Positions 3,180 to 20,910 of a stretch of 23,122 nt of DNA are shown in pieces (position 1 is the stretch's first letter; each line of letters opens with the position of its first letter). The notes beneath the pieces are model-generated. The model had not been told where the DNA came from, searched no databases, and was given only the letters and a program-made list of their open reading frames with translations. The position numbers and the translations under genes are program-made. The stretch comes from a virus. The DNA is taken from positions 1 through 23,122 of IMG/VR virus record IMGVR_UViG_3300020726_000020; one strand, given 5' to 3'.

Positions 3180-4898
3180 TTAAAGTGCAGGACCACCTGC
3201 ACCAATTGCACCTGCAGCACCCTGTGATCCTGGGCCACTTGCACCCGGTGCTCCCGGTTCTGCAACACCTGCATCGGGACCCAATGCTTCTATATCCGCA
3301 GCTACACCGCCTGGACTAAAACCGCCGCTACGTAAGCTAGGAGCATCAACTGCGGCCATCTCAGGATTGCCTTTTTCTTCTGCCCATGCTGTTTCGTTTT
3401 CACTAATCTCTTGTTCACTCATACCTAAATAACGCTTCATTAAAAAACGCTTACTTAAATAAGGTGTTTGTTCAAGCTGAGTAAAGTTAGTAATACGTGC
3501 TGCATCAATATCTGCTTGACGATATTGTGCAAAGTTTTGTGGTTCGTTGAATGATAAATCGAATAATGATCCATCAATGTTAAAACCTCTCCAACGCATA
3601 AACAGTTTAAACTCACTGTCCAACTTATCTGCAATCATCGATTGTAACCGTACACAATATTGATTAAAGCGCCATTCTTGAATAAGTGCTGTGCCCACAC
3701 GCCCATCAGTATATGCTGCTGTGCCATCTTCGGCAGTAGTAGGCAAATAGGAGCTAGGAATACGCAAACCGCGGAACAATTTGTTAGTAAAGAAGCGTAA
3801 ATCGGTGATTTCACCTAGGTTTTGACCGCCGGGGAACACGTCTACACTACTACCCCGCCCATCAGCTGTAACCGGGAAGAAATAGTCTTCGTTTTGTGAT
3901 AACGGATTATATGTAGCATCCATCATGTTGCTGTTGTTGCCTGTACCGGACTGTGTAGGAATACGACGTTGGTGAATTTCGTTTTTAATACGTTCAACGA
4001 ATGCCATTGCCATATGACTTGGCATGTTACCTACGTCAATTTTAAATACACGACGTTCCGGTGCACGTTGTACACGATAGATGATAATACTATCTTCTAA
4101 TAATTCTTTTTGTTTGAATACTTTAAAAATGTTTTCTAATACCGAGTTGCCAAATGGCCAATATACATCTAATCCTTCTGTTAAGCTAACGTGAACTACG
4201 TGCTCTGCATTAATCGCAGCCTCATTCATTGCTTTACTAAAGCGACTACCACCACCAAACGGTGCTTGCGGCTGTGTATATGCGCCGCTAGGACCACCCG
4301 TTTGCGGGTGATTCATGTAGGTATCTGTTGTAGCAACTGCTGTTACAGTTAAGTTTTGGAAGTTAGGGTTTAAGTCTTTAATTAAGTATTGCTCGGGCTT
4401 TTTACCTTCACCTTCGTTAACAATAACTTTAGTAACTTTAGACATTTCTGTCCACATTAGTTTAAAGTTTTCTGGATCACGAATGAATACTTGATCGCCG
4501 TACTTAAATGTGTTACGTACAATTTTAAAGATACGTTTGTTTAGTTCGTTTAGTGCCACCCATTGCTGTAACTGTTCGTTAATAATTTTAACTTCGTTAT
4601 CGCTAGGTTGTTCTTTAAATTTAATAGTAAATGCTGTGTGATTTTCTAAGTTCTTTTGACTACAGAACTCTGCCAGAATATCTAGTGCTGCATTAACTTC
4701 CGAGTCCATATCCATTTGCTCGTATTGGTTATACCGCTCAACACGATTTGGCTGTCCTGTATAAACTTCAGGAAGTTGACTTTGATAGTTACGGTATCCA
4801 GGATCGGCAATGCGGCCGCCTCCCAAAGGACTTACGTTACTAGGTAAATTTGATGTTTTAAAGTACTTGCGCCACGTACCGCGGGGTGTTTCAGCCAT
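3180..4898 (-). CDS. 20: Portal vertex protein gp20
   Basis: This 572-aa protein shows features of T4 gp20, the dodecameric portal through which DNA enters the head and to which the neck attaches. These include NQYEQMDMDSEVNAALDILA (about residues 57-76), FKYGDQVFIRDPE, an IIYRVQRAPERRVFKIDVGN segment, and RLQSMIADKLDSEFKLFMRW in the second half. It is somewhat longer than T4 gp20 (524 aa). The excess lies mainly in the last 60 residues, which are Gly/Ala/Pro-rich and end in collagen-like G-x-y triplets (GAPGASGPGSQGAAGAIGAG). The ATG overlaps the stop of the upstream homing endonuclease gene (TAATG), so its translation may be coupled to that gene. No frameshift is seen. Confidence 0.93.
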   Translation of the reverse strand: MAETPRGTWRKYFKTSNLPSNVSPLGGGRIADPGYRNYQSQLPEVYTGQPNRVERYNQYEQMDMDSEVNAALDILAEFCSQKNLENHTAFTIKFKEQPSDNEVKIINEQLQQWVALNELNKRIFKIVRNTFKYGDQVFIRDPENFKLMWTEMSKVTKVIVNEGEGKKPEQYLIKDLNPNFQNLTVTAVATTDTYMNHPQTGGPSGAYTQPQAPFGGGSRFSKAMNEAAINAEHVVHVSLTEGLDVYWPFGNSVLENIFKVFKQKELLEDSIIIYRVQRAPERRVFKIDVGNMPSHMAMAFVERIKNEIHQRRIPTQSGTGNNSNMMDATYNPLSQNEDYFFPVTADGRGSSVDVFPGGQNLGEITDLRFFTNKLFRGLRIPSSYLPTTAEDGTAAYTDGRVGTALIQEWRFNQYCVRLQSMIADKLDSEFKLFMRWRGFNIDGSLFDLSFNEPQNFAQYRQADIDAARITNFTQLEQTPYLSKRFLMKRYLGMSEQEISENETAWAEEKGNPEMAAVDAPSLRSGGFSPGGVAADIEALGPDAGVAEPGAPGASGPGSQGAAGAIGAGGPAL

Positions 4899-5380
4899 TA
4901 TGAATGTCCATTTTTACGACGGGTTTCCATCGTTTTTTCTAATCGTTTTTGTTTATACTCTGGGTCGGCCCAAAGATTTTTAACTGCATTTTTTATATTG
5001 TTAGCATGGCTATCTGTTTTAGGTTTTCTATATTTTTGTTTGTGTTCTTCGGTTCTAACTTTACCTAAATTGCCTTGTCTAATTTTTTCAACTGCTTCTT
5101 CGGAATGTTTCCAACCCGGTTCTGCTACCCATCTTGTTACTTTTTTGTTATCTAATATACCACCATGTTTTTTACAACCATAGAATTTAATTAATTCTGA
5201 TTCCATCTCGTATGCTGCTTTGTTAGTTAAACCGTCTTTAAGAATAATACGTCTATTTTCTGGTGGTACTTCAGTATATAAATGGTGTTCTCTAATCCGT
5301 GTTCCACTACCTTTACCAATGTAGTATGGTAACCCATCTTCAGTAATGTATTGATACGCGTAATAGTTGCAACCGGCCAT
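4898..5380 (-). CDS. Free-standing GIY-YIG homing endonuclease with NUMOD3-type region
   Basis: This 160-aa protein has an N-terminal GIY-YIG nuclease module: YYAYQYITEDGLPYYIGKG gives the paired GIY/YIG strands (residues about 6-24). Arg28 and Arg30 follow in TRIREHH, and a Glu-containing helix in AAYEMESELIKFYG carries the expected metal-binding Glu. The C-terminal half has WKHSEEAVEKIRQGNLGK and a second basic HKQKYRKPK segment, typical of NUMOD3 DNA-binding repeats in phage mobile endonucleases. Such enzymes cut a neighbouring locus in phages lacking the gene and spread by repair; they are not needed for virion assembly. It sits between the tape measure and portal genes, outside either coding sequence, and overlaps the portal ATG by 1 bp. 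A late-type promoter precedes it at 5402-5409. Confidence 0.85.
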   Translation of the reverse strand: MAGCNYYAYQYITEDGLPYYIGKGSGTRIREHHLYTEVPPENRRIILKDGLTNKAAYEMESELIKFYGCKKHGGILDNKKVTRWVAEPGWKHSEEAVEKIRQGNLGKVRTEEHKQKYRKPKTDSHANNIKNAVKNLWADPEYKQKRLEKTMETRRKNGHS

Positions 5381-5414: not shown

Positions 5415-8189
5415 TTAGCTTTGTGCCCATAAGATCTTTTCCGAAGTTCCATGTTGATCTTTTAATACTCTAAGCATAGCTTCAAGATTGGTGTTCATCT
5501 TATTAAATAAGGCAGTTGTATCTGATCGAGATGTTACACTAGCAGGCCCTTGTACTATTTCCGGACCTTTTTCCCCAACAATACCTAAATCGCCACTGGT
5601 AATGTCGCCTCCGTTGTCATACATCTTAACAGTACCGCCTTCGTTTTCGGCTGCGCTAAAATGCATAGCATCTTTAATGCTCTTCCAATCCCCGCCCCAT
5701 CCTAAACCCATACTTTTAGAAATAGCACCAATTTGAGCCGGCAAATCTGTTACTAGTTTTCCCCCCATTGGGTTTTCACCGGGATTAATATCCAATGCGC
5801 CGCCCTTGGCATGTACACTCTTAACACCCGGTTTTCCGCGAACATCGCGATCAGCATATCCACCCAGGCTCTTAATATCATACCCCACACTATCAAGGTA
5901 ATCAAGTAACGTTTGAAATTGTTTTGAATACGCAGCGCCAACACTGGCACTCTTGCCACTCTTACTTGTAACTGTTGCTAATTTTGGTGTAGTGCTCCCC
6001 CCGCCTTGTGCTACTGGGGCTTCCGAGCCTGGCTCAGGGGCACTTTCTCTTGCAGAGGGTATAGTAACTGATTTTGCAGGAGTAGATGCTGGTGTAGTTG
6101 GTGCGCCACCGGCTGGTGCCGCAACGCCCGGACCACGACTTCTAGCTTGGGTTGCTGCAAGTTCTGCTTTATATTTGGCCGCAAATGCTTCTTCTTGTTC
6201 TTTAGTTCTGCCAATGCCCCACTTTTGCTTTAACGATGCACCTTCCATAGTTTTATCGTATGTTGCTTTAGTTTCTTTTTCTTGTTTTGCTTCTGGCGTT
6301 GTGCCTTTTGCAGAACCACCAGACATTTTATTTAAATAGTTTGTAGCAGACATTACAGAATCTTTAAATGTATCCAAGTATTCCCCAGAATCTTTTAACT
6401 TATCTGTATACGTACCTAACATACCGCTAAACTGATCTTGTTGTTTAACTCTTTCTAATTGTGCTCGCTTTTCTAGGTCGGCATTATTTTGATCTAGTTT
6501 GGCTTTGTTGTTGGCAGAATTTGTTGCACTTTGACTAGTCTTGTTAGCAGCATCTTCTTGAAGTACAATCCCTCTTGCAAGGGTTTTATTAAGAATTTCC
6601 ATTGCACCAGTGAGTTCCCCGGTGGCACTCGAAGCTCTGCTTGCTAGACCAATCGAATCTAGTTGCCCTGAATCTGACAGCTCAATTGATCGCTGAGTGG
6701 CTTTAGTTACATTCTGTGCAGAATTCTCCATTGCTTGATGAGCCGACACATTGGCATCTTGCACATCGCCTAGCGATTGCTTCATGAAGTTGCTGTATTC
6801 TCTATTTTGAGTCATGGCAACATTAGTGGCGGTATCCATTACTGCTTTGCCGCCACTACTCACATACTCCATAAAACCTTTTTTAATGCCGAGCGCATCC
6901 GCCTGGGTGATTGCTTGTTGCATTTTTAATACTGCTTCCGGGCCACCAGTACTACGTCTAGCTTTGGATAGTATATCAGCTTCCATTGCAGCTGACTTAG
7001 CTTTCTCCATAGCTTTTTTAGCATCTTCGCCAGTAATTAACGCTAATACTTTTAAATCTTTAGCATAGTTAGCTGTTACTTGAGCAACTTCTAATTCATT
7101 ATTTTTTCGTTTATCGCCTGCAGCAACCATACCGGCAGAAACTTGGGCCGCCAACGAAACTTGTTCTTCATATGACATACCAAGTTTTGTTAATTGCTCA
7201 TCTAACCCAGATGTGCGAAGAGCGCCTCCAATCTTGGCCAAACGTTTTTGTGCATCGGCCATACCACCGCCCATGTCTTGTATATCCTTAGACGATATTT
7301 TTATAACGTCGCCCCATTGAGATACTGTTAATCCCGCTTCGCTAGCTTGATTACGCAACTCCGTCATACCACCGCCCAATACCGACCCCGCAGAGTTTAT
7401 TGCTTGAAAGGCTTTTTTGGTTGCTGTTAGTTCGTCACTAAGTAATTTTTGGCCTTCTGCATATTTGTCTAATGTTGTTTTACTTAGGTGTAGGAGGACT
7501 GCTAATGCACCCAATCCTCCAGCAAATAATTCAAGTGGTGGAAATACTAAACCTAGTGCAGCAAGGAGGCCGGCTGCACCGGCAACTATATCTTCAACTG
7601 TTCCGACTAATTTAGCATTAGCTTTAGTTACGTTTATTGCAGCGTTAGCATATAATTCTGTACCAGCAGTACCGGCTTGTAACCCAGACGCAAACTGTAA
7701 ACTATTTTCAATCATTGAGTTTACATAATCTATACCGGCTACAGTTATTTGACTAAAAGTCGATTGCAACGCTTTTGAAACAGCAATACCCTTCATAGTA
7801 ACAGCAGCTGATTGATTCTTAGCTTGTGTGCCTTGAATTTCTGCCATTTTACTATCAATTTTAGCTTTTTTCTCTAAGTCACCGTCCTTCATGGCTTGCT
7901 CGGCTTGTTTAGCTAAATCATCCAGGCTTTCTTCGAGTTTTTTAGTTGATTCACTAAGTGATGCAAACTCACTTTTAAAATCGTTAATCGGTTCACTGAT
8001 ACCTCTGAGACTTTTTGCAAAGGTCGTTAAACCGCCCTGGCCTTTTTTCATGCCGTCGGTTGTTTGTTTTAACTGTTTTTCAAACGCTTCAATATTGTCG
8101 GTATCAAAACTAAACGATTTGCCGCCCTTGCCAAAATACCTGTCAAATGCTGCAAATAAATCGTCTTTGGTAATTCCGTTATCAGCCAT
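5415..8189 (-). CDS. Tail tape-measure protein with M15-type peptidase domain
   Basis: This 924-aa protein is mostly Ala/Lys/Gln/Glu-rich helix with coiled-coil stretches, as in tape-measure proteins that set tail length and pass into the host during infection. A hydrophobic segment near residues 196-235 (VEDIVAGAAGLLAALGLVFP onward) could cross the membrane. A Pro/Ala/Ser-rich linker (about 690-750) leads to a domain at about 770-845. That domain has SVHAKGGALDINPG and WGGDWKSIKDAMHFSA, the HxxGxAxD ... D-x-M-H-F pattern of M15 D,D- or L,D-peptidases. It is followed by GGDITSGDLGIVGEKGPEIV, the Gly-rich motif common near tape-measure C-termini. The place and the neighbouring gp26/gp51-like genes suggest the equivalent of T4 gp29, but it is much longer than gp29 (590 aa). 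The peptidase could open peptidoglycan during DNA entry (inference). Confidence 0.82.
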   Translation of the reverse strand: MADNGITKDDLFAAFDRYFGKGGKSFSFDTDNIEAFEKQLKQTTDGMKKGQGGLTTFAKSLRGISEPINDFKSEFASLSESTKKLEESLDDLAKQAEQAMKDGDLEKKAKIDSKMAEIQGTQAKNQSAAVTMKGIAVSKALQSTFSQITVAGIDYVNSMIENSLQFASGLQAGTAGTELYANAAINVTKANAKLVGTVEDIVAGAAGLLAALGLVFPPLELFAGGLGALAVLLHLSKTTLDKYAEGQKLLSDELTATKKAFQAINSAGSVLGGGMTELRNQASEAGLTVSQWGDVIKISSKDIQDMGGGMADAQKRLAKIGGALRTSGLDEQLTKLGMSYEEQVSLAAQVSAGMVAAGDKRKNNELEVAQVTANYAKDLKVLALITGEDAKKAMEKAKSAAMEADILSKARRSTGGPEAVLKMQQAITQADALGIKKGFMEYVSSGGKAVMDTATNVAMTQNREYSNFMKQSLGDVQDANVSAHQAMENSAQNVTKATQRSIELSDSGQLDSIGLASRASSATGELTGAMEILNKTLARGIVLQEDAANKTSQSATNSANNKAKLDQNNADLEKRAQLERVKQQDQFSGMLGTYTDKLKDSGEYLDTFKDSVMSATNYLNKMSGGSAKGTTPEAKQEKETKATYDKTMEGASLKQKWGIGRTKEQEEAFAAKYKAELAATQARSRGPGVAAPAGGAPTTPASTPAKSVTIPSARESAPEPGSEAPVAQGGGSTTPKLATVTSKSGKSASVGAAYSKQFQTLLDYLDSVGYDIKSLGGYADRDVRGKPGVKSVHAKGGALDINPGENPMGGKLVTDLPAQIGAISKSMGLGWGGDWKSIKDAMHFSAAENEGGTVKMYDNGGDITSGDLGIVGEKGPEIVQGPASVTSRSDTTALFNKMNTNLEAMLRVLKDQHGTSEKILWAQS

Positions 8190-8242: not shown

Positions 8243-9112
8243 ATGGAAAATACACCTAATATCACGCCAGTGACTGCACCAAACCCACTAGCTAAATATT
8301 TTAGACAGCCTGCACTTTATATAAAATTACCATCAAACGGACAATACTGGATGCCGGGTAGTTTAAATTTACCCGTTACAGGAGAAGTCCCAATTTATCC
8401 AATGACTGCAAGAGATGAAATTACAATACGCACACCCGATGCATTAATGAACGGTGCCGGAGTTGTAGAAGTTCTGCAGAGTTGTTGCCCTAGTATTTCT
8501 AATGCATGGCACATGCCTAGCATTGACGTAGATACTGTGCTAATTGCTATTCGTGTTGCTAGTTATGGATACGAAATGCCAGTAGATACTAAATGTCCAT
8601 ACTGTAACGAAGATAACGCACACAGCGTAGATCTTCGTGTGGTACTTAGTGGTGCCAAATGTCCCGATTATAACAAAAGAGTAGAGATTAACAATTTAAA
8701 AATTAAAGTTAAACCAATGGAATTTTTCTCTGTTAATAAAAATAATAGTGTTAACTTCGAAGAACAACGCTTGTTAGCTAACCTAAGAGACAGTACTTTA
8801 CCCGACAACGAACGTGTTGAAAAAGTAAGAGAAAGTATGAATAAACTAGTCAATATCAGTATAGAAACTGTGGCTGTTTGTGTTGATTCAATTGAAACTG
8901 AAGATGGTACCGTTGTTAGTAATCAAGATTATATCAGAGAATTCTTCCAAAATTCAAATGGTGATATTCTTAAGGCTGTGCAAAAACGATTAGAGGAAAT
9001 TTCCGCGGAAGCAGAATTACCATCGCAGTCTGTTTCGTGTGGGTCTTGCAAAAAAGAATATCAAGTTCCGCTGGAGTTTAATTACGCAAATTTTTTCGCC
9101 AACGGCTCTTGA
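8243..9112 (+). CDS. 26: Baseplate hub / tail-assembly protein gp26-like
   Basis: This 289-aa protein resembles the T4 gp26 family (about 208 aa in T4). It starts with an ALYIKLPSNGQYWMPGSLNL-type segment and continues with EVPIYPMTARDEITIRTPDA, both characteristic of the family. CPYC at residues 118-121 and CGSC at 266-269 form two CxxC knuckles that could make one zinc ribbon. T4 gp26 is needed to build the baseplate hub but may act as an assembly factor rather than a final structural part. Divergent position next to the tape measure suits a tape-measure chaperone (inference). A perfect late promoter precedes it; the Shine-Dalgarno is weak (GGAAAA). The stop TGA overlaps the next ORF's TTG. 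A -1 slippery heptamer lies six codons before the stop. Confidence 0.8.
   Translation: MENTPNITPVTAPNPLAKYFRQPALYIKLPSNGQYWMPGSLNLPVTGEVPIYPMTARDEITIRTPDALMNGAGVVEVLQSCCPSISNAWHMPSIDVDTVLIAIRVASYGYEMPVDTKCPYCNEDNAHSVDLRVVLSGAKCPDYNKRVEINNLKIKVKPMEFFSVNKNNSVNFEEQRLLANLRDSTLPDNERVEKVRESMNKLVNISIETVAVCVDSIETEDGTVVSNQDYIREFFQNSNGDILKAVQKRLEEISAEAELPSQSVSCGSCKKEYQVPLEFNYANFFANGS
9088..9094 (+). other. Candidate -1 programmed frameshift site (A AAT TTT)
   Basis: The heptamer AAATTTT is in the gp26-like frame as A|AAT|TTT, the X-XXY-YYZ pattern of -1 slippery sites. The next ORF lies in exactly the -1 frame and is open from a TAA eight to ten codons before its TTG. Slippage would continue as TTT CGC CAA CGG CTC TTG and give a fusion of about 361 aa. 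No stimulatory hairpin was clearly identified downstream. Confidence 0.45.
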
Positions 9113-9327
9113 CTTTAACTCCTGAGCAAATCACTCAGGAATTTGCTACATTAGATAGAGAAGCAAGAGCCATAAGAGAAGAATCAATGAAAATGTCATG
9201 GTTTATGCGGGGTGGGCTATCTTATGAAGATGCATTAGCTCTGAGTACTCAAGAACGAGAAATCATTTCTAAAATCATTAAAGATAACTTAGATACCACA
9301 AAAGAGTCAGGCCTCCCATTTTTTTAG
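9109..9327 (+). CDS. 51: gp51-like tail/hub assembly protein (72 aa, or C-terminal extension of gp26-like)
   Basis: This ORF follows the gp26-like gene with a TTGA stop/start overlap and ends at 9327. If it starts independently it uses TTG, has no Shine-Dalgarno, and gives 72 aa. The visible core, EESMKMSWFMRGGLSYEDAL followed by TQEREIISKIIKDN, resembles the short conserved part of gp51-type hub assembly proteins in T4-like marine phages. T4 gp51 itself is longer (about 249 aa). The missing initiator and the slippery heptamer at 9088-9094 make translation as a -1 frameshift extension of the upstream protein a serious alternative. That would be analogous to the G/GT tail chaperones of lambda-like phages. 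The product is helical, without cysteines or membrane segments. Confidence 0.65.
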   Translation: MTLTPEQITQEFATLDREARAIREESMKMSWFMRGGLSYEDALALSTQEREIISKIIKDNLDTTKESGLPFF

Positions 9328-10137: not shown

Positions 10138-10923
10138 TTAAATCTTTTCCATTAAAGAATCTAGGAAATTTGTATAGTAGGAGTAGTTGGACTTTATGCC
10201 GGGGTGTACGTTGTCGTTGTTTGTATCTAATTTAGAATACAGCATTGAGTTATATAGGTTAAGCCAGTGCGACTCTTGTATAGTTCCTGCATCTGTGTAT
10301 TCTTTATGTATTTTATTATATAATTTAAAAATTTCTTCGTCGTTGCGATTGTCTGTATTAATTAATTTCTTAGTAAATTGTGTATAGTCACTTGGCATTG
10401 CATTTGTTAATTTGTTAAAATAATTCTCATCCCACGGACATAGTCCGTTTATAAAAAAGATCTTAGTTTTGTATAAACCTGCAACTTTTATTAGAACATT
10501 TACATATCTTACTAAATCTAGTATTTCGTGATGTAAATTTGCTAATGTTGTAAATCTATCTCTTATATTCTCTAAATACTTCTTAGAATAATTTATTTCG
10601 TTTGTATTAACATCAAATAATCCTGCATTTGGCATAAAAGTTACTTTAGTGCTATATAATTCTAATCCTAATTGCATTTCATATCTTGGTACACTAGACC
10701 ACTGTACAAACACATATTTGAAACTATTGTTTGTTAGTGCCTCCAATGTGCGATTAAATATTATAGCATTAGATCTGCCGGCTTCGCTAACATTAACTAA
10801 TTCGTAATCACGTAAAAAACTATTTTGATGCAGTAAATTAACCCAAAGTTCCGGTGCGTGTTCTTCTTGATCAAACCCAGTGCCTTGTGTATAACTACAC
10901 CCGGCAAATAATACTTTATTCAA
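10138..10923 (-). CDS. SGNH/GDSL-hydrolase-like protein
   Basis: This 261-aa protein begins MNKVLFAGCSYTQGTG, where GCSYTxG corresponds to the GDSL block I with the nucleophile at Ser10. A block with EAGRSN follows, and near the C-terminus comes DNVHPG with Asp237 and His240 in the D-x-x-H spacing of the catalytic pair. SGNH enzymes cleave or transfer acyl or other esters on lipids, sugars or glycans; the substrate here is unknown. No signal peptide is visible, so it probably acts in the cytoplasm. It starts with TTG overlapping the upstream stop as TTGA; no nearby ATG would preserve the catalytic block. It belongs to the run with the methyltransferase and radical-SAM genes and may be part of the same modification pathway (inference). 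Confidence 0.68.
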   Translation of the reverse strand: MNKVLFAGCSYTQGTGFDQEEHAPELWVNLLHQNSFLRDYELVNVSEAGRSNAIIFNRTLEALTNNSFKYVFVQWSSVPRYEMQLGLELYSTKVTFMPNAGLFDVNTNEINYSKKYLENIRDRFTTLANLHHEILDLVRYVNVLIKVAGLYKTKIFFINGLCPWDENYFNKLTNAMPSDYTQFTKKLINTDNRNDEEIFKLYNKIHKEYTDAGTIQESHWLNLYNSMLYSKLDTNNDNVHPGIKSNYSYYTNFLDSLMEKI

Positions 10924-11348
10924 ATCTTGCCCTTAATGTGACTACCATGCACACGTACTTGTATGTGCCCGTTATAATAATCATCGCTTTCTAATACTCT
11001 GCGACTAAACTGTTCTCTTGCTTCTATATAACTGCACTCCGATTTACTCCGGCAATAGTAAAGTATTTCTCTACTAAAGTTTTCAACGCCTAATGCAACT
11101 ACATCTTTTGTTAATTCTGGACTGGAACCATAATACTCTTGCCAATCACTATCAATTTTGCTACGGATCTTCTTTTTCTTCTTAGTGCCGTTCTTGAGCT
11201 TAACTACTTTATACGCTGTTTTACTGAATTTTGCGAGCTTTTTACCAATATATTTTCTTCCAGAAAGTTTATTTGTAATTAAATAAACAAATCCGACGCA
11301 ATCTTCGGGAAGAGATTCTACTAGAGTGTTTTCAAAAAGCCATGACAT
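10920..11348 (-). CDS. GIY-YIG nuclease-like protein
   Basis: This 142-aa protein has a GIY-YIG module from about residue 19: GFVYLITNKLSGRKYIGKK supplies the paired motif (VYL...KYIGKK). A Glu-containing helix, ECSYIEAREQFSRRVL, carries the probable catalytic Glu. A very basic insert (KNGTKKKKKIRSKID) lies between them, and the C-terminus ends YNGHIQVRVHGSHIKGKI. There is no NUMOD repeat, unlike the other GIY-YIG gene in this window, so it may be a phage nuclease with a dedicated role rather than a typical homing enzyme. It overlaps the SGNH-like gene as TTGA and begins at ATG 11348. Function beyond nuclease fold is not clear. Confidence 0.75.
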   Translation of the reverse strand: MSWLFENTLVESLPEDCVGFVYLITNKLSGRKYIGKKLAKFSKTAYKVVKLKNGTKKKKKIRSKIDSDWQEYYGSSPELTKDVVALGVENFSREILYYCRSKSECSYIEAREQFSRRVLESDDYYNGHIQVRVHGSHIKGKI

Positions 11349-11363
11349 GCATAGTAGTTATCA

Positions 11364-12176
11364 TCATTTGCCTGTATCTGTATTTTTTAATACATAGAAG
11401 TTTTTCTTCCCAGCGGTTCTCGGTGGCGACTCACCATGCCCAATAAAATCGTGATAATCGTAATAAAATAATACTTCCCACCCATGATATTTTAGTACAG
11501 AATTTAGCGCATTACGAGAAGGCATCAACCCACTTGTGTATTCTTCCCCGGTATTAGTAAATGATTGTATATTTTTAGTATTAGTTGATGCTTTCCAAAA
11601 TTCAAAATGCCCATCATCACAATAATCATCTATAACTGAACTTTCAAAAAATAAAAACTTTGGTTTCACTTTTTGCTTTATAAATGCTAGTACATCGATG
11701 CCGTTGTTTAAATAGTACATTACATCCAGGAAAAATACAACATCATACGGTTCGTTATTATATTGTTGCATGTACTCGTTTAACGACATTTTAGTATTTG
11801 TAACAATGCCGGATAGGTTTCTTAATTTGATATACTCATCACCGAGACTTTTTCGAGTTGTGTCTGGCTCAACACAGTCTGCATGACTAGCACCATTTAA
11901 TATAGCCCATACGCTCCAGAAATTAAGATTTGATCCTAGATCTAAAATCTTAGCATCTTTAAGTAAATTCTGATGTAACACATAATAACAATAGTACCTG
12001 GCTAACCAGCATTCGGGATAACTCCACACAGTATGAGAGTCTGGTGTAAATTCGGCACCGGGGTTATCAAACAGTTTATGAAAAATGTATTCAATATATT
12101 GGCTATCATTGAGTGTACTTTTTAACTCAGCAAGTTTATTAAAGTCCATTTTTGCCGACGGCATACTGTTGTACAT
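11364..12176 (-). CDS. Class I SAM-dependent methyltransferase
   Basis: The 270-aa product has the Rossmann methyltransferase motifs in order. These are ILDLGSN (motif I, residues 77-83), an acidic DCVEPD at 100-105 that would bind the ribose hydroxyls, and a YDVVFFLDVMYYLNNG motif IV segment. No DPPY/NPPY motif is present, so a DNA adenine or N4-cytosine methylase is unlikely. The best fit is a small-molecule, sugar, protein or RNA methyltransferase of the broad Methyltransf_11/23-like group. The N-terminal helical region (about 60 residues) and the C-terminal tail with HGESPPRTAGKKNFYVL are not recognised. It lies between a radical-SAM gene and a GIY-YIG gene with 15-22 bp gaps. The start is ATG 12176; ATGs at codons 5 and 10 are possible alternatives. 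Confidence 0.78.
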   Translation of the reverse strand: MYNSMPSAKMDFNKLAELKSTLNDSQYIEYIFHKLFDNPGAEFTPDSHTVWSYPECWLARYYCYYVLHQNLLKDAKILDLGSNLNFWSVWAILNGASHADCVEPDTTRKSLGDEYIKLRNLSGIVTNTKMSLNEYMQQYNNEPYDVVFFLDVMYYLNNGIDVLAFIKQKVKPKFLFFESSVIDDYCDDGHFEFWKASTNTKNIQSFTNTGEEYTSGLMPSRNALNSVLKYHGWEVLFYYDYHDFIGHGESPPRTAGKKNFYVLKNTDTGK

Positions 12177-12198
12177 AGTAGTAATAATTATCCCCTAG

Positions 12199-13203
12199 TT
12201 ACCAAGTTGTTGCATAGTCTTGATTTACTACGGCTTTTGTACATTTAGTATTGCACTCTTGCCAGCGGAATTGTTTAAACTCTGTTATCCAGAATGGATC
12301 GGCTATTACTTCTGTTAATGTTCTGTTGTTCAAATTGAATCGTTCTGCTAATTGTTGCCATTCGTTGTTATGACTGTATCTGTTGGCTACCCAACAGCAA
12401 GGGAATAGTCTGCCTCGAGCATCAATATACAATCCTTTATTGCCAATTTCGCACAAGGGTATGATTGTCGGATTGTCTTTAACTTGATTATACAATGTAA
12501 TATTAATAGGATGTATGTTGCTAACATTATTATTAAAACGGGTAGTATCGCGCTCGAATCGGTGCGTATTACTTACGTACCTATCGCTGGGTTGTAGAGG
12601 ATCTATAGTTCCATAATTGGGATATATCTTTCCAAACTTAGTGCTACGTGTTAATTGAAAAGCATCCATTCCTAATTTGTTTGCTAAAGATTGCATATAA
12701 TCTATATGATCTTCGTTAAACTTAAACGCTATAGCGGCCCATACTAAACGACACTTACTAGTGGCTCTTAACACCTCAATGCCTTGAATAATAGATACGA
12801 AATCGCTGTTTACCCTATACAAATTGTTACTTGCATTATCATATCCATCCACGCTAAAGTGTACGGTATCTGCTTCTGTAAGTACATTACCTAATGCTGT
12901 CCAATAATCCGGTTTCTTATGACTACCGTTTGTGATAATAACAATCTCAACAGGTTTAATACTTTTAATATATTCAATTACGGCGATTAAATCGTGTGCA
13001 TATATAGGATCCCCGTCGTCGCCGCAGAATGTAATCTTTTCTAAATTAGCAAGAATAAATTCTTCTGTAAAATTTCTTTTAAAAAACTCTAAGGCTAACT
13101 CTGTGTTAATTAAACTATCAGGAACTTCTTGTCGGGCGCAACGAGGGCACCGTAAGGTACACTTGCTACTAATCTCAATATGAAAATGCCAGGTAGCTAA
13201 CAT
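12199..13203 (-). CDS. Radical SAM protein with C-terminal SPASM/twitch-type cluster
   Basis: The 334-aa product has the radical-SAM CxxxCxxC at Cys15, Cys19 and Cys22 (SSKCTLRCPRC). A GDDGDP motif near residue 61 stands where the SAM-binding GGE motif normally lies, and an IITNGS strand follows. The C-terminus has further cysteines: Cys251, the FPCCW pair Cys269/Cys270, and Cys317/Cys321. This arrangement fits a SPASM or twitch auxiliary [4Fe-4S] domain. Enzymes of this type modify peptides, proteins or sugars (for example sactipeptide, PQQ or anaerobic sulfatase maturation), but the substrate cannot be read from the sequence. The start is ATG 13203, 2 bp after the stop of the oxygenase-like gene. 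Confidence 0.85.
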   Translation of the reverse strand: MLATWHFHIEISSKCTLRCPRCARQEVPDSLINTELALEFFKRNFTEEFILANLEKITFCGDDGDPIYAHDLIAVIEYIKSIKPVEIVIITNGSHKKPDYWTALGNVLTEADTVHFSVDGYDNASNNLYRVNSDFVSIIQGIEVLRATSKCRLVWAAIAFKFNEDHIDYMQSLANKLGMDAFQLTRSTKFGKIYPNYGTIDPLQPSDRYVSNTHRFERDTTRFNNNVSNIHPINITLYNQVKDNPTIIPLCEIGNKGLYIDARGRLFPCCWVANRYSHNNEWQQLAERFNLNNRTLTEVIADPFWITEFKQFRWQECNTKCTKAVVNQDYATTW

Positions 13204-13205
13204 AG

Positions 13206-13838
13206 TTATTCTAAGTCTACTAGAACCTGTAAAAACTTCTTAGGACCAATTTGTCTAACGTGAAAATTGTCACTGCTATGGAATAAGTTACGTTTAAAAA
13301 ACAATGTACTACCCGCCTTCCAATTCTGTCCTACATATTTTAAACTTAAATACTCTCGATCCTCGTCCCAACAATGCGATAGATTATCGTTCCAAAAATT
13401 TAAATCTATGGGATGACTGCATTTTTCATTTAATTCTTTATATTTGTAAAAATCGTTATAATCGGGTGCTGTTTGATCAAATATTATTGTGCGGCTTTCG
13501 TAGCTTTCTAATGGAATAATAAATGTATACCAAGTTGATGATCCTTTTAAAGGGCGACTAGATTCGCTATGTATATCCCACGGCAAGCATAACTCTACAT
13601 AGTCAACTTCTACAACTTTGATATTTTCTCCTAATACTTGATTCATACGCTCTTTAAGTAATAGTCCCAACTCGTCATTGTTGTTCCATGTATGCCATCT
13701 TTGTGTAGCAATAAGTTCCCCGGGGAAACGGCCGTAGTCAGGACGAAAATCAACTCGTTCCCAATCTTTTACGATGTTAGCAATTTCATTGAGCTCTGCG
13801 GAACTAACCCAATCCGGAATTTCAAATATATCTTTCAT
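13206..13838 (-). CDS. 2-oxoglutarate/Fe(II) oxygenase-like protein
   Basis: This 210-aa protein has the outline of a small 2OG-Fe(II) dioxygenase of the double-stranded beta-helix type. WDIHSES supplies a possible HxE metal pair (His90, Glu92). KAGSTLFFKRNLFHSS gives the distal His187, and Arg195 eight residues later could bind 2-oxoglutarate. The Glu in place of the commoner Asp is an accepted variant. Related phage and bacterial proteins hydroxylate prolyl, aspartyl or other side chains, or small molecules, and the substrate here is unknown. It sits between two radical-SAM genes with 2-bp gaps on both sides, so co-translation is nearly certain. The assignment is by motif only; another cupin-fold protein is possible. 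Confidence 0.6.
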   Translation of the reverse strand: MKDIFEIPDWVSSAELNEIANIVKDWERVDFRPDYGRFPGELIATQRWHTWNNNDELGLLLKERMNQVLGENIKVVEVDYVELCLPWDIHSESSRPLKGSSTWYTFIIPLESYESRTIIFDQTAPDYNDFYKYKELNEKCSHPIDLNFWNDNLSHCWDEDREYLSLKYVGQNWKAGSTLFFKRNLFHSSDNFHVRQIGPKKFLQVLVDLE

Positions 13839-13840
13839 TA

Positions 13841-15334
13841 TTATCTTTTTTCTAATAGTATAACAGGTTTCGCAGAATATTCAATCAAATTTGATTGTTC
13901 GGCTAATTTTTTAAGTACTAGTAACTCTTCACGAACTCTTGGCATCGGATAGCCCAACTCGACACAAAGTTCATGTATTTCGATACGTCTACGTATTCTT
14001 TCTTTGAGAGTATTACTGGGGTTTAGTGCAGAAGTCCAACTGTAGACACTATCAAATTTAATATTGTCACTAATATTTATTTGCAAATCGTGTACCATAT
14101 CCATAATTGGGGTATGGTCGTACAAGTGCATGGTAAATCCCCAGCGCATCATGAATATCGTTCCCATATCTGAATATTTTTTATATTTTTTTATAGCATC
14201 GATATTGTCTTGATGATCTTGTGCTGTTTCGGTTGGGTATCCCACAATCATTAAGAATACGTTTGGAATACCCCACAGCGCACATTGTTCTAAGTGATAA
14301 TCAATGTCGGCATTTGAAAACTTCTTACGCATATGAGTACGAACATTGTTACTAAAACTCTCAATGCCAGTTGTTAACATAGTACATCCGGCTAACCGCA
14401 TAAGCTCATAGCTACGTGCTGGCTGTTGCGTAGATGGTCTACAAATAAATTGTCCTTGATATCTAATAGGTTCTAACTCGGGATTTTTTAATTTTTCCTC
14501 GTACAACAATTCGTTGAATCGATCAAAGTTACTAATGCTTCCGTTTATTAAACTATCAGTAAATTCAAAATTGGTAATTCCGTAGTCATAAAAATGTTTT
14601 TTAATCTCTGCAACAATACTCTCTGCACTACGATATCTAAACTTTGGCCACGTTAATGCTATATCGCAGAATGTGCAGTTACGTACACATCCCCGACTGC
14701 CCGTAATTAATACCCGGTTGCCCTGATATCTATCCATATCAAAAAATTCATATGTTGGCACAGGTAAGCTAGATAGATCTTCAATTTGTATAGGATTGTT
14801 TTGATTAATCCCGGGATACTTACTGTTACCGTTGAGTAATTCGCGAAACGTTATTTCGCCTTCTCCGTATATTACAAAATTGGCTAACTTGTGTTCTAAA
14901 ATGTAATTACCGAAGATTTGCTTATTCCCAACACTGGTATCAGTTGATACGCCCGTTCCGCCAACTACACTAGTGATTGTAAAGGATTCTTTATACCATG
15001 CAAGTACTTTGGTTGCAATACGATTACTAAAATAACTAAACACACTGAAGCAAACAAAATCAGTTTGGGCATTAATTTTAGAATTAAGACCATTTTTAAA
15101 AATCTTTTTTAATTTATTTTCAAGTTTTATATCTATATGATCGCTGGAAAATGCATTCCAAGATTCAAGCTGTTGCCATTCTTTAGAACTAAGTCCATCA
15201 AATAAATCTAAATTGTAATCAAAAATTGTAACATTGTAATTGCTTTCTTTAGCTACACTGGAAAGTATTGCTAATGCGCCGGGCGGATATGCAAGCTCAA
15301 CTTTGGGTAACGATATAATAACAAGATTTTTCAT
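13841..15334 (-). CDS. B12-binding-type radical SAM protein
   Basis: The 497-aa product starts with a Rossmann-like domain typical of cobalamin-dependent radical-SAM enzymes. This has VIISLPKVELAYPPGALAIL (residues 5-24, including YPPG), a VVGGTGVS loop at 123-130 and IYGEGEITFREL near 155-166. No clear DxHxxG is seen, so cobalamin may bind base-off without a lower His ligand, as in many of this class, or not at all. The catalytic core has SRGCVRNCTFC with Cys216, Cys220 and Cys223. Family members catalyse methylations, ring formation or other radical steps on peptides, lipids, tetrapyrroles or tRNA (MiaB/RimO-like relatives have different domain order). The ATG overlaps the previous stop as TAATG. 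It is flanked by the oxygenase-like gene and a 137-aa unknown. Confidence 0.85.
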   Translation of the reverse strand: MKNLVIISLPKVELAYPPGALAILSSVAKESNYNVTIFDYNLDLFDGLSSKEWQQLESWNAFSSDHIDIKLENKLKKIFKNGLNSKINAQTDFVCFSVFSYFSNRIATKVLAWYKESFTITSVVGGTGVSTDTSVGNKQIFGNYILEHKLANFVIYGEGEITFRELLNGNSKYPGINQNNPIQIEDLSSLPVPTYEFFDMDRYQGNRVLITGSRGCVRNCTFCDIALTWPKFRYRSAESIVAEIKKHFYDYGITNFEFTDSLINGSISNFDRFNELLYEEKLKNPELEPIRYQGQFICRPSTQQPARSYELMRLAGCTMLTTGIESFSNNVRTHMRKKFSNADIDYHLEQCALWGIPNVFLMIVGYPTETAQDHQDNIDAIKKYKKYSDMGTIFMMRWGFTMHLYDHTPIMDMVHDLQINISDNIKFDSVYSWTSALNPSNTLKERIRRRIEIHELCVELGYPMPRVREELLVLKKLAEQSNLIEYSAKPVILLEKR

Positions 15335-15747
15335 TATGAAAGTATTTTTTTAATTTCCTTGACAATCTTAGGGTATCCGTTATTAATACCAACATATAGA
15401 TCAAAGAAATGCTTACTCTGCCGTTGCTTTTCAGACAAACTATTAATACGCCCTTGTATATTCTTATTTTTATATTCGTTAAAAAAATTATCAGTCACAC
15501 TCATTGTTAATTTATGATCTTGTAATAAAATATCGGCTAACCAGTAATCTAGCATAAAATCATTATACCTGACACTAGGCTTAATTTTAAAAGGCCAAAA
15601 CTCTACATCAATTTGTACAGGAAATTCGTTAGAGAAACTAACTTTAAGGGAAGTGCAATCTATATCGTGTGCCACAAGTTGTTGATTAATGTAAATTTTA
15701 ACATTATCAAATTTTTTATCTTGCAACAACACCTCTATAGAGTTCAT
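15334..15747 (-). CDS. 137-aa protein of unknown function coupled to gp46
   Basis: I do not recognise this protein. It begins MNSIEVLLQDKKFDNVKIYI. The first two thirds alternate hydrophobic and charged residues in a likely beta-sandwich (VSFSNEFPVQIDVEFWPFKI). The last third is a Lys-rich helix pair. One cysteine only, no signal peptide, no membrane segment. Its ATG overlaps the gp46 stop as ATGA, and its stop overlaps the next ATG as TAATG, so it links the recombination gene to the radical-SAM genes in one translational unit. It may be a partner or substrate-binding protein of the adjacent radical-SAM enzyme, but that is only positional inference. Confidence 0.65.
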   Translation of the reverse strand: MNSIEVLLQDKKFDNVKIYINQQLVAHDIDCTSLKVSFSNEFPVQIDVEFWPFKIKPSVRYNDFMLDYWLADILLQDHKLTMSVTDNFFNEYKNKNIQGRINSLSEKQRQSKHFFDLYVGINNGYPKIVKEIKKILS

Positions 15748-17513
15748 ACAATGTCTACATCCGTATTATAACTTGTAAACCCGTTTTCTTTAACTACGTG
15801 AAGTGTATTATTAACACGACCTGCTAGTTCATCTTTGTGCGACACTAACCAAATACTCTTGTTAGCTTCGCGACTCATCTTTTTAAGAATAGCCAAAGAG
15901 TTTTCAACCCCCGAACTATCCATACCGCTGTCTACTAACTCATCGATGAATAACAAGTTAATGGGTTGATATAAACTTTCCCACACATCACGAAATGCCC
16001 ATGACAAACTTAAAATAAGTCTATTGCGTTCGCCACGTGATAAGTTATCGAAGTCTAAATCTCTACCTAGCTCAGTAATGGCTACAGTTAAATCGTTGTT
16101 AAACTTAACTGTGTGTGGTAAGCCAATACGATCTAGGTATTGTCCCAAGCGGGCGTTTAAATAACTTAAATTTTGATCAATGATACGTTTACGAATAAAT
16201 GAATCTTTGTTTGTTAATAGCTTTAGCAAGAACTCTTGATGATCTTTAACGTTTGTAAGTTCGTTGATTGTATCATAACTAACTTCTTCTAATGCGGTTT
16301 CCTGCATTTCTGCAATTTGTTCTGTATATGGGTCTGATTCTGCTACCTTGGCAGTTAGTTGCTTGATTAAGTTGTCTACAGTTGCTTGATGATGGATAGC
16401 ATCGGCTTCCTTATCGTAGAACATTATTGGCCGTGGACCGAGTTTGCCCAGCCCAAGCTCAGCCGACTGTAATTCAGCCAAAGTGGCAGCATAAGATTCC
16501 GCGGAGTCGCGAGCCACTGATAGTTCTCCCTGCTTCTGTCCCATAACCTGTTGGTGCTTTTCGTCGTGGAACTCTTGGCCGCAAGTGGAGCACGTATGAT
16601 TTTCCAGCGAATCAATATCTGCTGATATCTTGCTAACACTTTTTTCTTCCCGCGAAAGGTCCAATTTGGTGCGACTAATCGCCGACGATAGTTCATTGAG
16701 ATCCTTTCTAAGTTGATCCCATGTCTTGAACGCTTGGTGTGCCTGAATCTCGGCCTTGATGTCGATCTTCTGAAGCTCTTCGATCGCATCGTGTGTCTTG
16801 TTAATCTCATCATCGTGCTTGTTGTTCCACATTGTTTGTCTACGCTTCAATGCTTCAATTTGCTCTTGAATGCGGACGTTAGCATCAGTAACAGCTTTAA
16901 TACGAAACTCTTCTGCGGTAATAGCGTCTTTAGTTGCTTTACCTTGTTCTTTTAATTTGTCTGCTTTTTCTGATAGTAATGTAATACCAAGTAACTGTTC
17001 AATGATAGCACGTTGATCGTTTGCACGTAAGGCTAAGAATGGTTCAGTATACGTGTTTAACGCTACAATATGCTTAAACATGTCATGCGACATACCTAGC
17101 ATACGTTCTATTTCTGCTTGGGTTTCTCTGCTATCGCCCTGGGCATCGTCGGTAATTTCTTTTTCTTGATCTCCTACCCAAAAGCGCATGCCTGTGGGCT
17201 TACGTCCACGCTCAATGCGATAATGCTCACCGTCTTTTTCAAAATCAATAGTAACCATCATATTCTTTTGATTAGTTTTATTAATTAAGTTATCTTTCTT
17301 AATGTTAGTAAGTGCGTTACCGTATAAGGCATAGCTCAGAGCATTAATAATAGTAGTCTTTCCCGTACCGTTTCTCGCACCAGAATCGTCACCGCCTAAG
17401 TCTAAGTTTTCACCTAATACTAGCGTTAAATCTTGTCGATCAAAGTTAACAGCCTGGGTAGTATTACCCACGCTCATAAAGTTTTTAACGGTTAGAGTTT
17501 TTATTTTAAACAT
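15744..17513 (-). CDS. 46: Recombination endonuclease subunit gp46 (Rad50/SbcC-like ATPase)
   Basis: The 589-aa protein is a Rad50-type ATPase. It has Walker A GARNGTGKTT (residues 45-54), a first coiled-coil arm and a zinc-hook CSTC near residues 307-310. A second arm follows, then the ABC signature LSRGERNRLILSLSW (about 488-502) and Walker B LLFIDELVDSG (about 516-526). T4 gp46 (560 aa) pairs with gp47 to process DNA ends for recombination-dependent replication and host DNA breakdown. Unlike T4, a radical-SAM gene separates it from gp47. A strong sigma70-like promoter (TTGACT-17-TATATT) lies immediately before the ATG, so the mRNA may be nearly leaderless. Its stop overlaps the start of the 137-aa ORF. 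Confidence 0.95.
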   Translation of the reverse strand: MFKIKTLTVKNFMSVGNTTQAVNFDRQDLTLVLGENLDLGGDDSGARNGTGKTTIINALSYALYGNALTNIKKDNLINKTNQKNMMVTIDFEKDGEHYRIERGRKPTGMRFWVGDQEKEITDDAQGDSRETQAEIERMLGMSHDMFKHIVALNTYTEPFLALRANDQRAIIEQLLGITLLSEKADKLKEQGKATKDAITAEEFRIKAVTDANVRIQEQIEALKRRQTMWNNKHDDEINKTHDAIEELQKIDIKAEIQAHQAFKTWDQLRKDLNELSSAISRTKLDLSREEKSVSKISADIDSLENHTCSTCGQEFHDEKHQQVMGQKQGELSVARDSAESYAATLAELQSAELGLGKLGPRPIMFYDKEADAIHHQATVDNLIKQLTAKVAESDPYTEQIAEMQETALEEVSYDTINELTNVKDHQEFLLKLLTNKDSFIRKRIIDQNLSYLNARLGQYLDRIGLPHTVKFNNDLTVAITELGRDLDFDNLSRGERNRLILSLSWAFRDVWESLYQPINLLFIDELVDSGMDSSGVENSLAILKKMSREANKSIWLVSHKDELAGRVNNTLHVVKENGFTSYNTDVDIV

Positions 17514-17519
17514 TAAATT

Positions 17520-17548
17520 AATATACTAGATTTAGTTGTAAAAGTCAA
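17520..17548 (-). promoter_or_regulatory. Sigma70-like promoter TTGACT-17 bp-TATATT for gp46
   Basis: On the minus strand the -35 TTGACT (17543-17548) and -10 TATATT (17520-17525) are 17 bp apart, each 5 of 6 consensus. The -35 contains the TGA stop of the upstream radical-SAM gene. Only 6 bp separate the -10 from the gp46 ATG, so transcription should begin at or next to the start codon. The element closely resembles that before gp47. Confidence 0.6.
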
Positions 17549-19116
17549 TATTCCATTGCCCGGGATATTTCGGGATATAATGCAGAAAAACTCTCATCCC
17601 TGATGGAATCAAGATTTTTCATATAATTGCAAAAATCGTCGCTACTATAAGGTTTAGCTGATTTTAAAATGTTAATAATATTACTAATAAACATCGATAC
17701 TGTAGGATCAATTGAATGATATGTGGATAGCTTTTCTAAAACTAACCTGTTTGCGCTACTAGTAAGATGCGAAATATTTAAGTATTCTGGAAGGTACAGG
17801 GTACTAAAATGAAAGCTATCAAATTTCTGTGCGATTATCCAATTACATATTTCTGGTAGGTAGTACACGTTTTGAATATTAACTGCCAAATGTAGTGCTA
17901 TTTTAATAACACTACAGTCTAATGCTAAAAATTGTTTTATATTTGAGTTGACTATATCCCATGCAACTCCTGGACGTTCGTACTCGAATCGTTTTCCTAT
18001 ATTATCGACGCTAATGGCAATTTCAACATTTTTAAATTGTTGTAGTAAACTTATATATTTTTCTGGGAAGACAGTACCGTTAGTATTATAATGTATACTA
18101 ATATCTTTAGCCCGATTTAGTGCAACAAGCTGTTCTAGAATTTGAAAGTGCCTAATTGACAGCATAGGTTCGCCACCAGCTAAATCAAAATGTACAATAT
18201 TTGATTTTAGATCTAGTATTGAATTCCAAATTTTGGCATTGTCATCTTTAATCCAATTACCGGCCGACATCAATTGATACACTGGGTGTGATTTTTTATC
18301 TTTAACATTTGAATTATTGATTAATTCTGTAGCGAATAGGCTACTATTATCTGGACTACATATTCTACATTTTAAATTACATACATTACCAAATGCAACA
18401 CTTGCAAATACTAGGTTCGCAATATTATCTTGTTCCCAGTTTGAATTATATGATTCGGGCACAATGCGATGTTTAAGTAATTGTCTTTTACTTTCAGTGC
18501 CGTCGCGTTCCTCGTTCCAGCATCTGGCGCACGGCTCGGGCTTGCTTCCATGTCTAAAGTCTTCTCTAAGTTTTTGCATATAATCGCTGTTATATACGTC
18601 ATCAAACGTATCAACTTGAGCATGAAACGGAGTCCCGTTGTTTTTAGTTATTACTTTATTATAAAAGCAACATGGACGAAATTCCCCGTTAGTAGTAACA
18701 TCTAACGATATCCATGGTTGCGTACAGATAGATTCGGGCGGATTAAGAATCACATTACTAGTCTTATCATAGTTAATCACAGGAGTATCTACTAATTTGA
18801 ATGCAATAGGATCTTCTTCGTTTGAATATAGTTGTGTTGCAGTTGCAAGTATTTGTTTTATTGCAGGATTATTTGATAAAAATATAACAAAAAAGTTTGG
18901 AATATCAATAAAAGATAAACTTTTCTGCAGACTATACGCAAAATCTTCGATTTGTTTTATTTCAAGATTTTCAAAACAAGAGAATATTATTCTATAATCA
19001 TTTGGAAATGATTCCTGCTTGAGGCTGTATAGCTCACGATGTAATGTTGCAGATGGTTTCTCTAAATATTCTACAACAGTACGTACACGATCAAATTGAA
19101 AGTGATCTAAGTTCAT
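17545..19116 (-). CDS. Radical SAM protein with N-terminal twitch-type cysteine cluster
   Basis: The 523-aa product has an N-terminal region of about 125 residues that I do not recognise. Next is a cysteine cluster, Cys131, the PCC pair Cys149/Cys150, and CARC at 196-199, resembling the auxiliary-cluster (twitch/SPASM) fold placed before the core. The radical-SAM motif NVCNLKCRIC gives Cys246, Cys250 and Cys253. GGEP is at 314-317, and IHYNTNG and EIAISVDN mark further barrel strands. Such twitch-domain radical-SAM proteins occur in marine phages with unknown substrates. The gene is inserted between gp47 and gp46: its ATG overlaps the gp47 stop as ATGA and its TGA forms part of the gp46 -35 box. 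It is co-transcribed with gp47 while leaving the gp46 promoter intact. Confidence 0.85.
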   Translation of the reverse strand: MNLDHFQFDRVRTVVEYLEKPSATLHRELYSLKQESFPNDYRIIFSCFENLEIKQIEDFAYSLQKSLSFIDIPNFFVIFLSNNPAIKQILATATQLYSNEEDPIAFKLVDTPVINYDKTSNVILNPPESICTQPWISLDVTTNGEFRPCCFYNKVITKNNGTPFHAQVDTFDDVYNSDYMQKLREDFRHGSKPEPCARCWNEERDGTESKRQLLKHRIVPESYNSNWEQDNIANLVFASVAFGNVCNLKCRICSPDNSSLFATELINNSNVKDKKSHPVYQLMSAGNWIKDDNAKIWNSILDLKSNIVHFDLAGGEPMLSIRHFQILEQLVALNRAKDISIHYNTNGTVFPEKYISLLQQFKNVEIAISVDNIGKRFEYERPGVAWDIVNSNIKQFLALDCSVIKIALHLAVNIQNVYYLPEICNWIIAQKFDSFHFSTLYLPEYLNISHLTSSANRLVLEKLSTYHSIDPTVSMFISNIINILKSAKPYSSDDFCNYMKNLDSIRDESFSALYPEISRAMEY

Positions 19117-20135: not shown

Positions 20136-20164
20136 ATTTTACTACATTATTGCTACAAAGTCAA
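20136..20164 (-). promoter_or_regulatory. Sigma70-like promoter TTGACT-17 bp-TAAAAT for gp47
   Basis: On the minus strand the -35 TTGACT (20159-20164) and -10 TAAAAT (20136-20141) are 17 bp apart. The -35 contains the TGA of the upstream SGNH-like gene, and the ATG follows the -10 after 6 bp. Layout and many bases match the gp46 promoter. Confidence 0.6.
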
Positions 20165-20910
20165 TGCTGGTTTGTTGCGATTTTTTCCAATAAATATCTC
20201 CCAAATTCACGATGTGCTTCTTTGCCCGGGTGCCCAGTTAATCCATATTTAACTTGATCTTTTGGTAAATGCCCGTTGTTTAATGCAAAGTCTGCAAAAC
20301 TAAAATTCCATAAATCGATGATTGAATTTTTTGTATTAGCATATTCGTTAAAGTTGGCAAGAAATGGTGCAGTTACATCAACTTCCGGAAGTGATGGGAG
20401 TTTTTGACAATTACAAAAAATTAAAATTTGCGAATTAATTGATTCAGCAAATGAATTAAGCATAATAACATCGGTTATCAAGTTAGTGACTTCTGCTTCT
20501 TTAGAAAAGTGTAATAGCCAGTATTTGTAATAGTCTTTTATTTCGGAATCCGCATACTCGTGAACATTAGGGCGGTGGGTGTTGATTAATCCGCCAGACC
20601 AATCTAGATTCTGTATACCGGCATTAGTAATTGGATGAAAATCACCATCATTGCCGACTGGGGGTAAATGTGGTTGCCATAATTCAGTCCTGCTAATAAA
20701 CGATAAACCCACTAACGCCAATAACGGCCCACTATGAGTTTTTCGAATATCAATCAATGATCTAATAGAACTACGTATTATACGCCGATTGCACGAAGCC
20801 GGAGTACCATCATTTACTAATTTAGCTGCTAACTCCTGTGCAACAACTTCAGGATAAATTGTATGTCCCTGTGGTGCACCAAAGCTACATGAGTTTGAAT
20901 AAACAATCAA
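20161..20910 (-). CDS. SGNH-hydrolase-like protein, second copy, divergent active site
   Basis: The 249-aa product starts MIVYSNSCSFGAPQG, where SCSFG matches block I (GCSxxxG) with Ser9 as the possible nucleophile. Near the C-terminus GLTGHPGKEAH holds the block V His227 followed by Pro-Gly, but the Asp usually three residues before the His is replaced by Leu224 (GLTGH). It may use another acid or be inactive. The two SGNH-like proteins of this window share little beyond these blocks, so they are not recent duplicates. It starts with TTG overlapping the gp55 stop as TTGA; no in-frame ATG exists near the start. Its own TGA is part of the gp47 -35 box. Substrate unknown. Confidence 0.55.
   Translation of the reverse strand: MIVYSNSCSFGAPQGHTIYPEVVAQELAAKLVNDGTPASCNRRIIRSSIRSLIDIRKTHSGPLLALVGLSFISRTELWQPHLPPVGNDGDFHPITNAGIQNLDWSGGLINTHRPNVHEYADSEIKDYYKYWLLHFSKEAEVTNLITDVIMLNSFAESINSQILIFCNCQKLPSLPEVDVTAPFLANFNEYANTKNSIIDLWNFSFADFALNNGHLPKDQVKYGLTGHPGKEAHREFGRYLLEKIATNQH

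Follow-up and report, generated by a model that had tools for sequence, protein, structure and literature searches.

A functional analogue of the locus described here is the gpG/gpGT pair of phage lambda, in which a short tail assembly chaperone and a long, -1 frameshifted one are encoded beside the tape measure gene. The chaperones of T4-like phages were reportedly identified by Vladimirov, Gautam and Davidson (2022; Virology 566:9-15), and the abstract of that study is said to describe frameshifting as conserved in several T4-like groups. As relayed by papers that cite it, T4-like phages have a two-gene chaperone arrangement (PMC10885494) and polyT slip sites in their TAC-N genes (PMC12846349); a short and a long fused chaperone (TAC-N and TAC-NC) occur there, as is predicted for the present locus, and in some T4-like phages the short gene is accompanied by a long one that is already fused. 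To the extent that these relayed accounts convey it, chaperone frameshifting in the T4 superfamily is already published in principle (Vladimirov et al. 2022), and the details that may be new here are the coverage of a clade of jumbo phages and an RNA stem downstream of the slip site. In Vandenendeviridae and Andersonviridae, which are other phage families than that of our sequence, TAC-N has likewise been described to end in a T-rich motif, GTTTTT, where a -1 shift is conserved (PMC12846349). A 2016 review presents G-T frameshifting as widely conserved "except T4" (PMC5009743), and a published list names T4 gp26 and gp51 as chaperones of hub assembly, with gp51 absent from the final particle (PMC3004832).

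The locus that we analysed comes from a jumbo myophage with RaK2 and Atu_ph07 among its relatives, and very probably encodes a frameshifted pair of tail assembly chaperones. Its likeness to lambda gpG/gpGT is one of function, with no sequence relation shown; it differs in having T TTT TTC rather than a lambda-type slip site, a presumed tape measure gene that is divergent, and a downstream stem. An earlier note on this DNA had suggested that a -1 frameshift joins a gp26-like to a gp51-like protein, and that the two may be what G/GT is in other phages. With a slip heptamer and the -1 frame both conserved among relatives, this remains the best explanation, although the conserved heptamer is not the one that the note had chosen.

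The gp26-like gene and its neighbours

The window, by which we mean the whole stretch of DNA analysed, comprises the 23,122 bases of its source record and is a fragment of a jumbo myophage genome. Its homologies assign it to a phage related to Atu_ph07, Phosso, GAP32, RaK2, 121Q and PA5oct. Two of its genes are of immediate concern:

8243..9112, plus strand: gp26-like ORF, short form (TAC-N), 289 aa, with PF12322 and phrog_150 matches
5415..8189, minus strand: adjacent gene for a presumed tape measure protein, 924 aa, with a C-terminal M15 peptidase domain (PF13539)

The gp26-like ORF matched the Pfam profile PF12322 with an E-value of 1.4e-17 and 64.5 bits, above the curated cut-off of 24.5, and phrog_150 ("baseplate hub") with an E-value of 3.9e-23; by these profile matches it is a member of the T4 gp26 family. 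It is the only PF12322 copy in the 23-kb window, itself only a genome fragment, and its protein is 22-34% identical to those of the jumbo-phage relatives. The AlphaFold model (pLDDT 90) resembles predicted viral baseplate hub or gp26-type proteins, including an Aeromonas phage gp26. Foldseek returned no significant fold match for this model in the PDB, a sequence search of solved structures with the gp26-like protein found nothing, and an NCBIfam search gave nothing useful. When the model was compared with the HK97 tail assembly chaperone 2ob9, the VIA Z score of 5.7 (101 of 107 residues aligned, rank 47) lay within the range of unrelated rows.

Many of these jumbo relatives share the neighbourhood seen in the window, with the portal gene, the divergent structural gene, the gp26 gene and the small ORF; in GAP32, RaK2 and PA5oct the position of the divergent 924-aa gene is taken by genes for virion structural proteins. 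Its product matches PF13539 (E 3.3e-12) near the C-terminus, and profile searches gave no strong tape measure match for it. The earlier note had called this neighbour the tape measure gene; its adjacency and divergent orientation are as described there, and the tape measure role is one that we infer.

Slip site and -1 frame in the window and its relatives

The junction at the 3' end of the gp26-like ORF contains two overlapping slippery heptamers and an open -1 frame:

9091..9097, plus strand: conserved slippery heptamer T TTT TTC, in frame (67 of 67 distinct junctions)
9088..9094, plus strand: overlapping heptamer A AAT TTT of the earlier note, shared by only some of the close relatives
9098..9327, plus strand: -1 frame extension (TAC-C, the gp51-like part), with a homologous -1 ORF in relatives

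The note had described A AAT TTT as lying in the gp26-like frame near its stop, followed by a -1 ORF that is open back through the slip site and has neither an ATG nor a Shine-Dalgarno start. This arrangement was borne out. Five codons separate A AAT TTT from the TGA at 9110-9112, and the -1 frame is open over 9082-9327, running 71 codons beyond the gp26-like stop; its first ATG lies 32 codons past the slip site with no Shine-Dalgarno-like 4-mer ahead of it, and its first NTG is a TTG that overlaps the gp26-like stop. The predicted fusion, of the size anticipated in the note (about 361 aa), is 361 aa whichever heptamer is used, and consists of 285 codons ending in ...NFF followed by RQRLLTLTPEQ... 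A AAT TTT is not, however, the conserved slip site. The long ORFs of the window have 5,510 codon positions, and in-frame heptamers of the form X XXY YYZ occur at 39 of these, so that A AAT TTT alone proves little. In-frame T TTT TT[C/T] occurs in the same ORFs a single time, at 9091-9097.

The junction was compared in jumbo phages from a phage collection, in uncultured viral contigs, and in S-PM2, P-SSM2, HTVC008M, phiM12 and KVP40. A DNA-level search of phages with the window sequence gave no matches, and a scan of viral contigs with the window gp26 as single query was unsuccessful. Moreover, an alignment of 16 gp26 sequences was too diverse for scanning, and the portal protein was used instead, yielding 80 loci from uncultured contigs; since they were retrieved via the portal gene, these loci are unbiased with respect to the junction. 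All 67 distinct gp26 junctions had an in-frame T TTT TT[C/T] (T TTT TTC in 63, T TTT TTT in 4) together with a -1 ORF; the heptamer was 0-11 codons from the gp26 stop, and the -1 frame stayed open for about 59-82 codons afterwards. Consequently, we regard T TTT TTC (9091-9097) as the conserved slip site. The counts do not represent independent events because the sequences are related, but the set does include proteins less than 35% identical, and it extends to PF12322 proteins from cyanophages, the Pelagibacter phage HTVC008M, phiM12 and KVP40. A frameshifted tail assembly chaperone is marked by a single PF12322 gene with an in-frame slip heptamer close to its 3' end, overlapped by a -1 ORF. 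The window and all 67 junctions have the heptamer and the -1 ORF, and the gene is single in the whole genomes of Atu_ph07, 121Q and PA5oct.

An additional 18 loci had T TTT TTC in 16 cases and A AAT TTT in two. The latter heptamer was found in only part of the window's close relatives, and in two cyanophage-like contigs it is the sole slip site, in frame and followed by a homologous -1 domain:

L144:1924-2200 and L145:2181-2450: junctions with A AAT TTT replacing T TTT TTC

The alignment of relatives that the note had suggested thus upholds the -1 frame, and puts T TTT TT[C/T] in the place of A AAT TTT.

Codon choice at the slip site was assessed in 60 aligned genes, in which 31 columns combined a conserved amino acid with a synonymous choice. 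The slip-site TTT and TTC, invariant in 60 of 60 genes each, were the only columns with zero synonymous variation; the next-lowest had a synonymous entropy of 0.57 bits, and the median of the 31 was 1.08 bits. The codon before the slip-site TTT ends in T in all 60 genes, whichever of N, S, H, R, Y, D or T it encodes. Elsewhere in these gp26 genes Phe is encoded by TTT (67%) and TTC (33%), and for the amino acids in question the expected share of sequences with NNT TTT TTC is about 12%.

These data bear on three other explanations. The small ORF could be a separate gene, whose translation would begin where that of gp26 ends, through reinitiation or coupling; in the window the TTG overlaps the TGA there. 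Several relatives, e.g. 121Q and Phosso, have start-stop overlaps (TAATG or ATGA) and small genes annotated there in public records, and an ATG overlapping the gp26 stop in some relatives allows independent initiation in those. However, the -1 ORFs of PA5oct and phage 30-2 contain no ATG, GTG or TTG at all, the first ATG is found anywhere from codon 3 to codon 58 after the slip site, and Shine-Dalgarno-like 4-mers stand ahead of only 15 of 65 first ATGs. Similarity among the -1 proteins begins at the slip site itself, and overlapping starts leave the invariant TTT TTC codons unexplained, so that we consider a separate gene very unlikely. Public records either give the small gene whatever start codon is available or leave it out: in RaK2, PA5oct and 30-2 the -1 frame is open, yet the records hold no gene for the -1 domain. 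In the public jumbo phage records examined, the fused protein was missed, or a small separate gene was annotated.

Slightly less probable again is a fused product of transcriptional rather than ribosomal slippage. The slip signal is indeed a homopolymer run, but it has only six T and is always phased as T TTT TT[C/T], as slippage of tandem tRNAs requires; the non-homopolymer A AAT TTT takes its place in L144 and L145, and the stem described below sits at the spacing of a ribosomal stimulator. Finally, the idea that the motif is kept only because the protein needs Phe-Phe has next to no credibility. The proteins of A1 and A5 do have an invariant FF, but the codon data speak against this idea in that other FF pairs in the same genes use every codon combination, the preceding codon is always T-final despite its varying residue, and T4 keeps FF with the codons TTC TTT.

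The downstream RNA stem

Ribosomal -1 frameshifting, the explanation that we prefer, may draw on a second signal, as the slip site is followed by a predicted RNA stem that looks like a frameshift stimulator:

9104..9111, plus strand: 5' arm of the RNA stem, GGCUCUUG, 6 nt past the heptamer
9164..9171, plus strand: 3' arm of the RNA stem, CAAGAGCC, pairing with 9104-9111

The predicted folding energy of 9098-9200 is -26.3 kcal/mol in the window (z = -3.05), and the z-score in Atu_ph07 is -7.0. Over 44 sequences 90.2% of the cells in the stem arms were paired, compared with 24-55% when the partner was slid, and in five pairs both partners had changed. At alignment columns 38/97, 29 sequences have the pair UA and 14 have CG. 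Coding does not readily explain this exchange, since the 5' change is synonymous (Leu CTT/CTC) and the 3' change is Lys/Arg. On the tree, however, the covariation of this pair comes down to only about three evolutionary events and is not significant alone, which weakened covariation as proof of the stem.

Stronger support comes from the stems that appear to have been rebuilt with differing sequences in separate lineages. First, in three of the loci (L088, L091 and L102) the stem has a new partner (AGCTCTTAAC/GTTAAGAGCT) at a similar distance. Secondly, different stems lie at a similar distance in XacN1 (a perfect 11-bp stem), S-PM2 (14 bp), P-SSM2 (11 bp), phiM12 (10 bp) and PA5oct (11 bp). 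For a stem at stimulator spacing, the Fisher combined P over 14 lineages was about 1e-10 relative to positions inside the same genes. The stem is common but not universal, being weak or missing in HTVC008M, CM1, SCTP-2, KVP40 and the GAP32/121Q/Munch group. Rfam has no family for this downstream stem. A perfect inverted repeat, TCCTGAG/CTCAGGA (9120-9126/9134-9140), lies inside the stem loop.

On balance, we lean somewhat towards the view that frameshifting in the T4 superfamily uses a two-part cis signal, namely a near-universal U UUU UU(C/U) and a stem 4-9 nt downstream that has been rebuilt with unrelated sequences in many lineages, including a jumbo clade in which its use was previously undescribed. 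The lineages meant are the Atu_ph07-type jumbo phages together with the window's clade, XacN1, PA5oct, cyanophages and phiM12. Slip site and stem would then form a compact signal by which the proportion of the two assembly chaperones is fixed.

Proposed mechanism and the T4 genes 26 and 51

According to the proposed mechanism, most ribosomes would terminate at 9110-9112 and give the short 289-aa form, while a minority would slip back one nucleotide on T TTT TTC (9091-9097), with tRNA-Phe in both sites. Slippage would probably be aided by the RNA stem that begins 6 nt downstream, and the slipped ribosomes would continue in the -1 frame to produce the 361-aa form with its gp51-like C-terminal domain. 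The signals in the sequence, their conservation and the homologies are what we observed, and from them we infer that frameshifting takes place; its efficiency is inferred as well. If the analogy with lambda gpG/gpGT holds, the short form would act as a chaperone that coats the presumed tape measure protein of the adjacent gene, while recruitment of tail tube subunits would fall to the long form.

The comparison with T4, which the earlier note had drawn through its 26/51 pair, holds for the family and fails for the junction. T4 gp26 and gp51 are both PF12322 proteins (also phrog_150), as is the product of the window's gp26-like ORF, and are mutually alignable, which identifies them by homology as paralogues within the family of that ORF. 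Their genes are separate and divergent, however, and there is no 26/51 junction in T4. Two PF12322 genes and no slip site were found in T4, RB43, Aeromonas 31 and KARL-1, the two genes being divergent in T4, Aeromonas 31 and KARL-1; at the end of T4 gp26 (EFFELL) the FF codons do not form a slip heptamer. KVP40, the cyanophages, HTVC008M, phiM12, Atu_ph07, 121Q and PA5oct have one PF12322 gene with a slip site, and in the whole genomes of Atu_ph07, 121Q and PA5oct this is the single copy.

The C-terminus of T4 gp51 matches the -1 ORFs of cyanophages and KVP40 (phrog_634; hhalign probability 95%). For the -1 ORFs of the jumbo clade the hhalign match to it is weak (36%, E 3.8e-4) and lies at the same C-terminal position, which is suggestive of homology between the -1 domain of the window's clade and the gp51 C-terminus; comparing the jumbo profiles with the T4 gp51 sequence alone gave no useful information. 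T4 gp51 is the long form and gp26 the short form, and our results suggest that in T4 the two chaperone forms have been split into separate genes, 26 for the short one and 51 for the long one. The gp51 proteins of cyanophages and a marine vibriophage lack the first ~200 residues (Sullivan et al., PMC3037559), an absence that the frameshift explains. T4 is the exception listed in the 2016 review; across T4-like viruses the frameshift appears to be widespread.

The remainder of the window holds several genes of other kinds. A SegE-type GIY-YIG endonuclease (PF19835) is encoded at 10920-11348, and a second GIY-YIG-looking ORF with no Pfam match lies at 4898-5380, with the portal gene on one side and the presumed tape measure gene on the other. 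The ORFs at 10138-10923 and 20161-20910 have an SGNH/GDSL-type look by eye (motifs GCSYTQG and SCSFGAPQG) with no strong Pfam match. Between gp26 and a gp55-like late sigma factor, the region 11364-19116 contains an enzyme cluster of three radical SAM proteins, two of them with SPASM, along with one methyltransferase-like protein and unassigned proteins, arranged around an SMC/AAA (gp46-like) gene.
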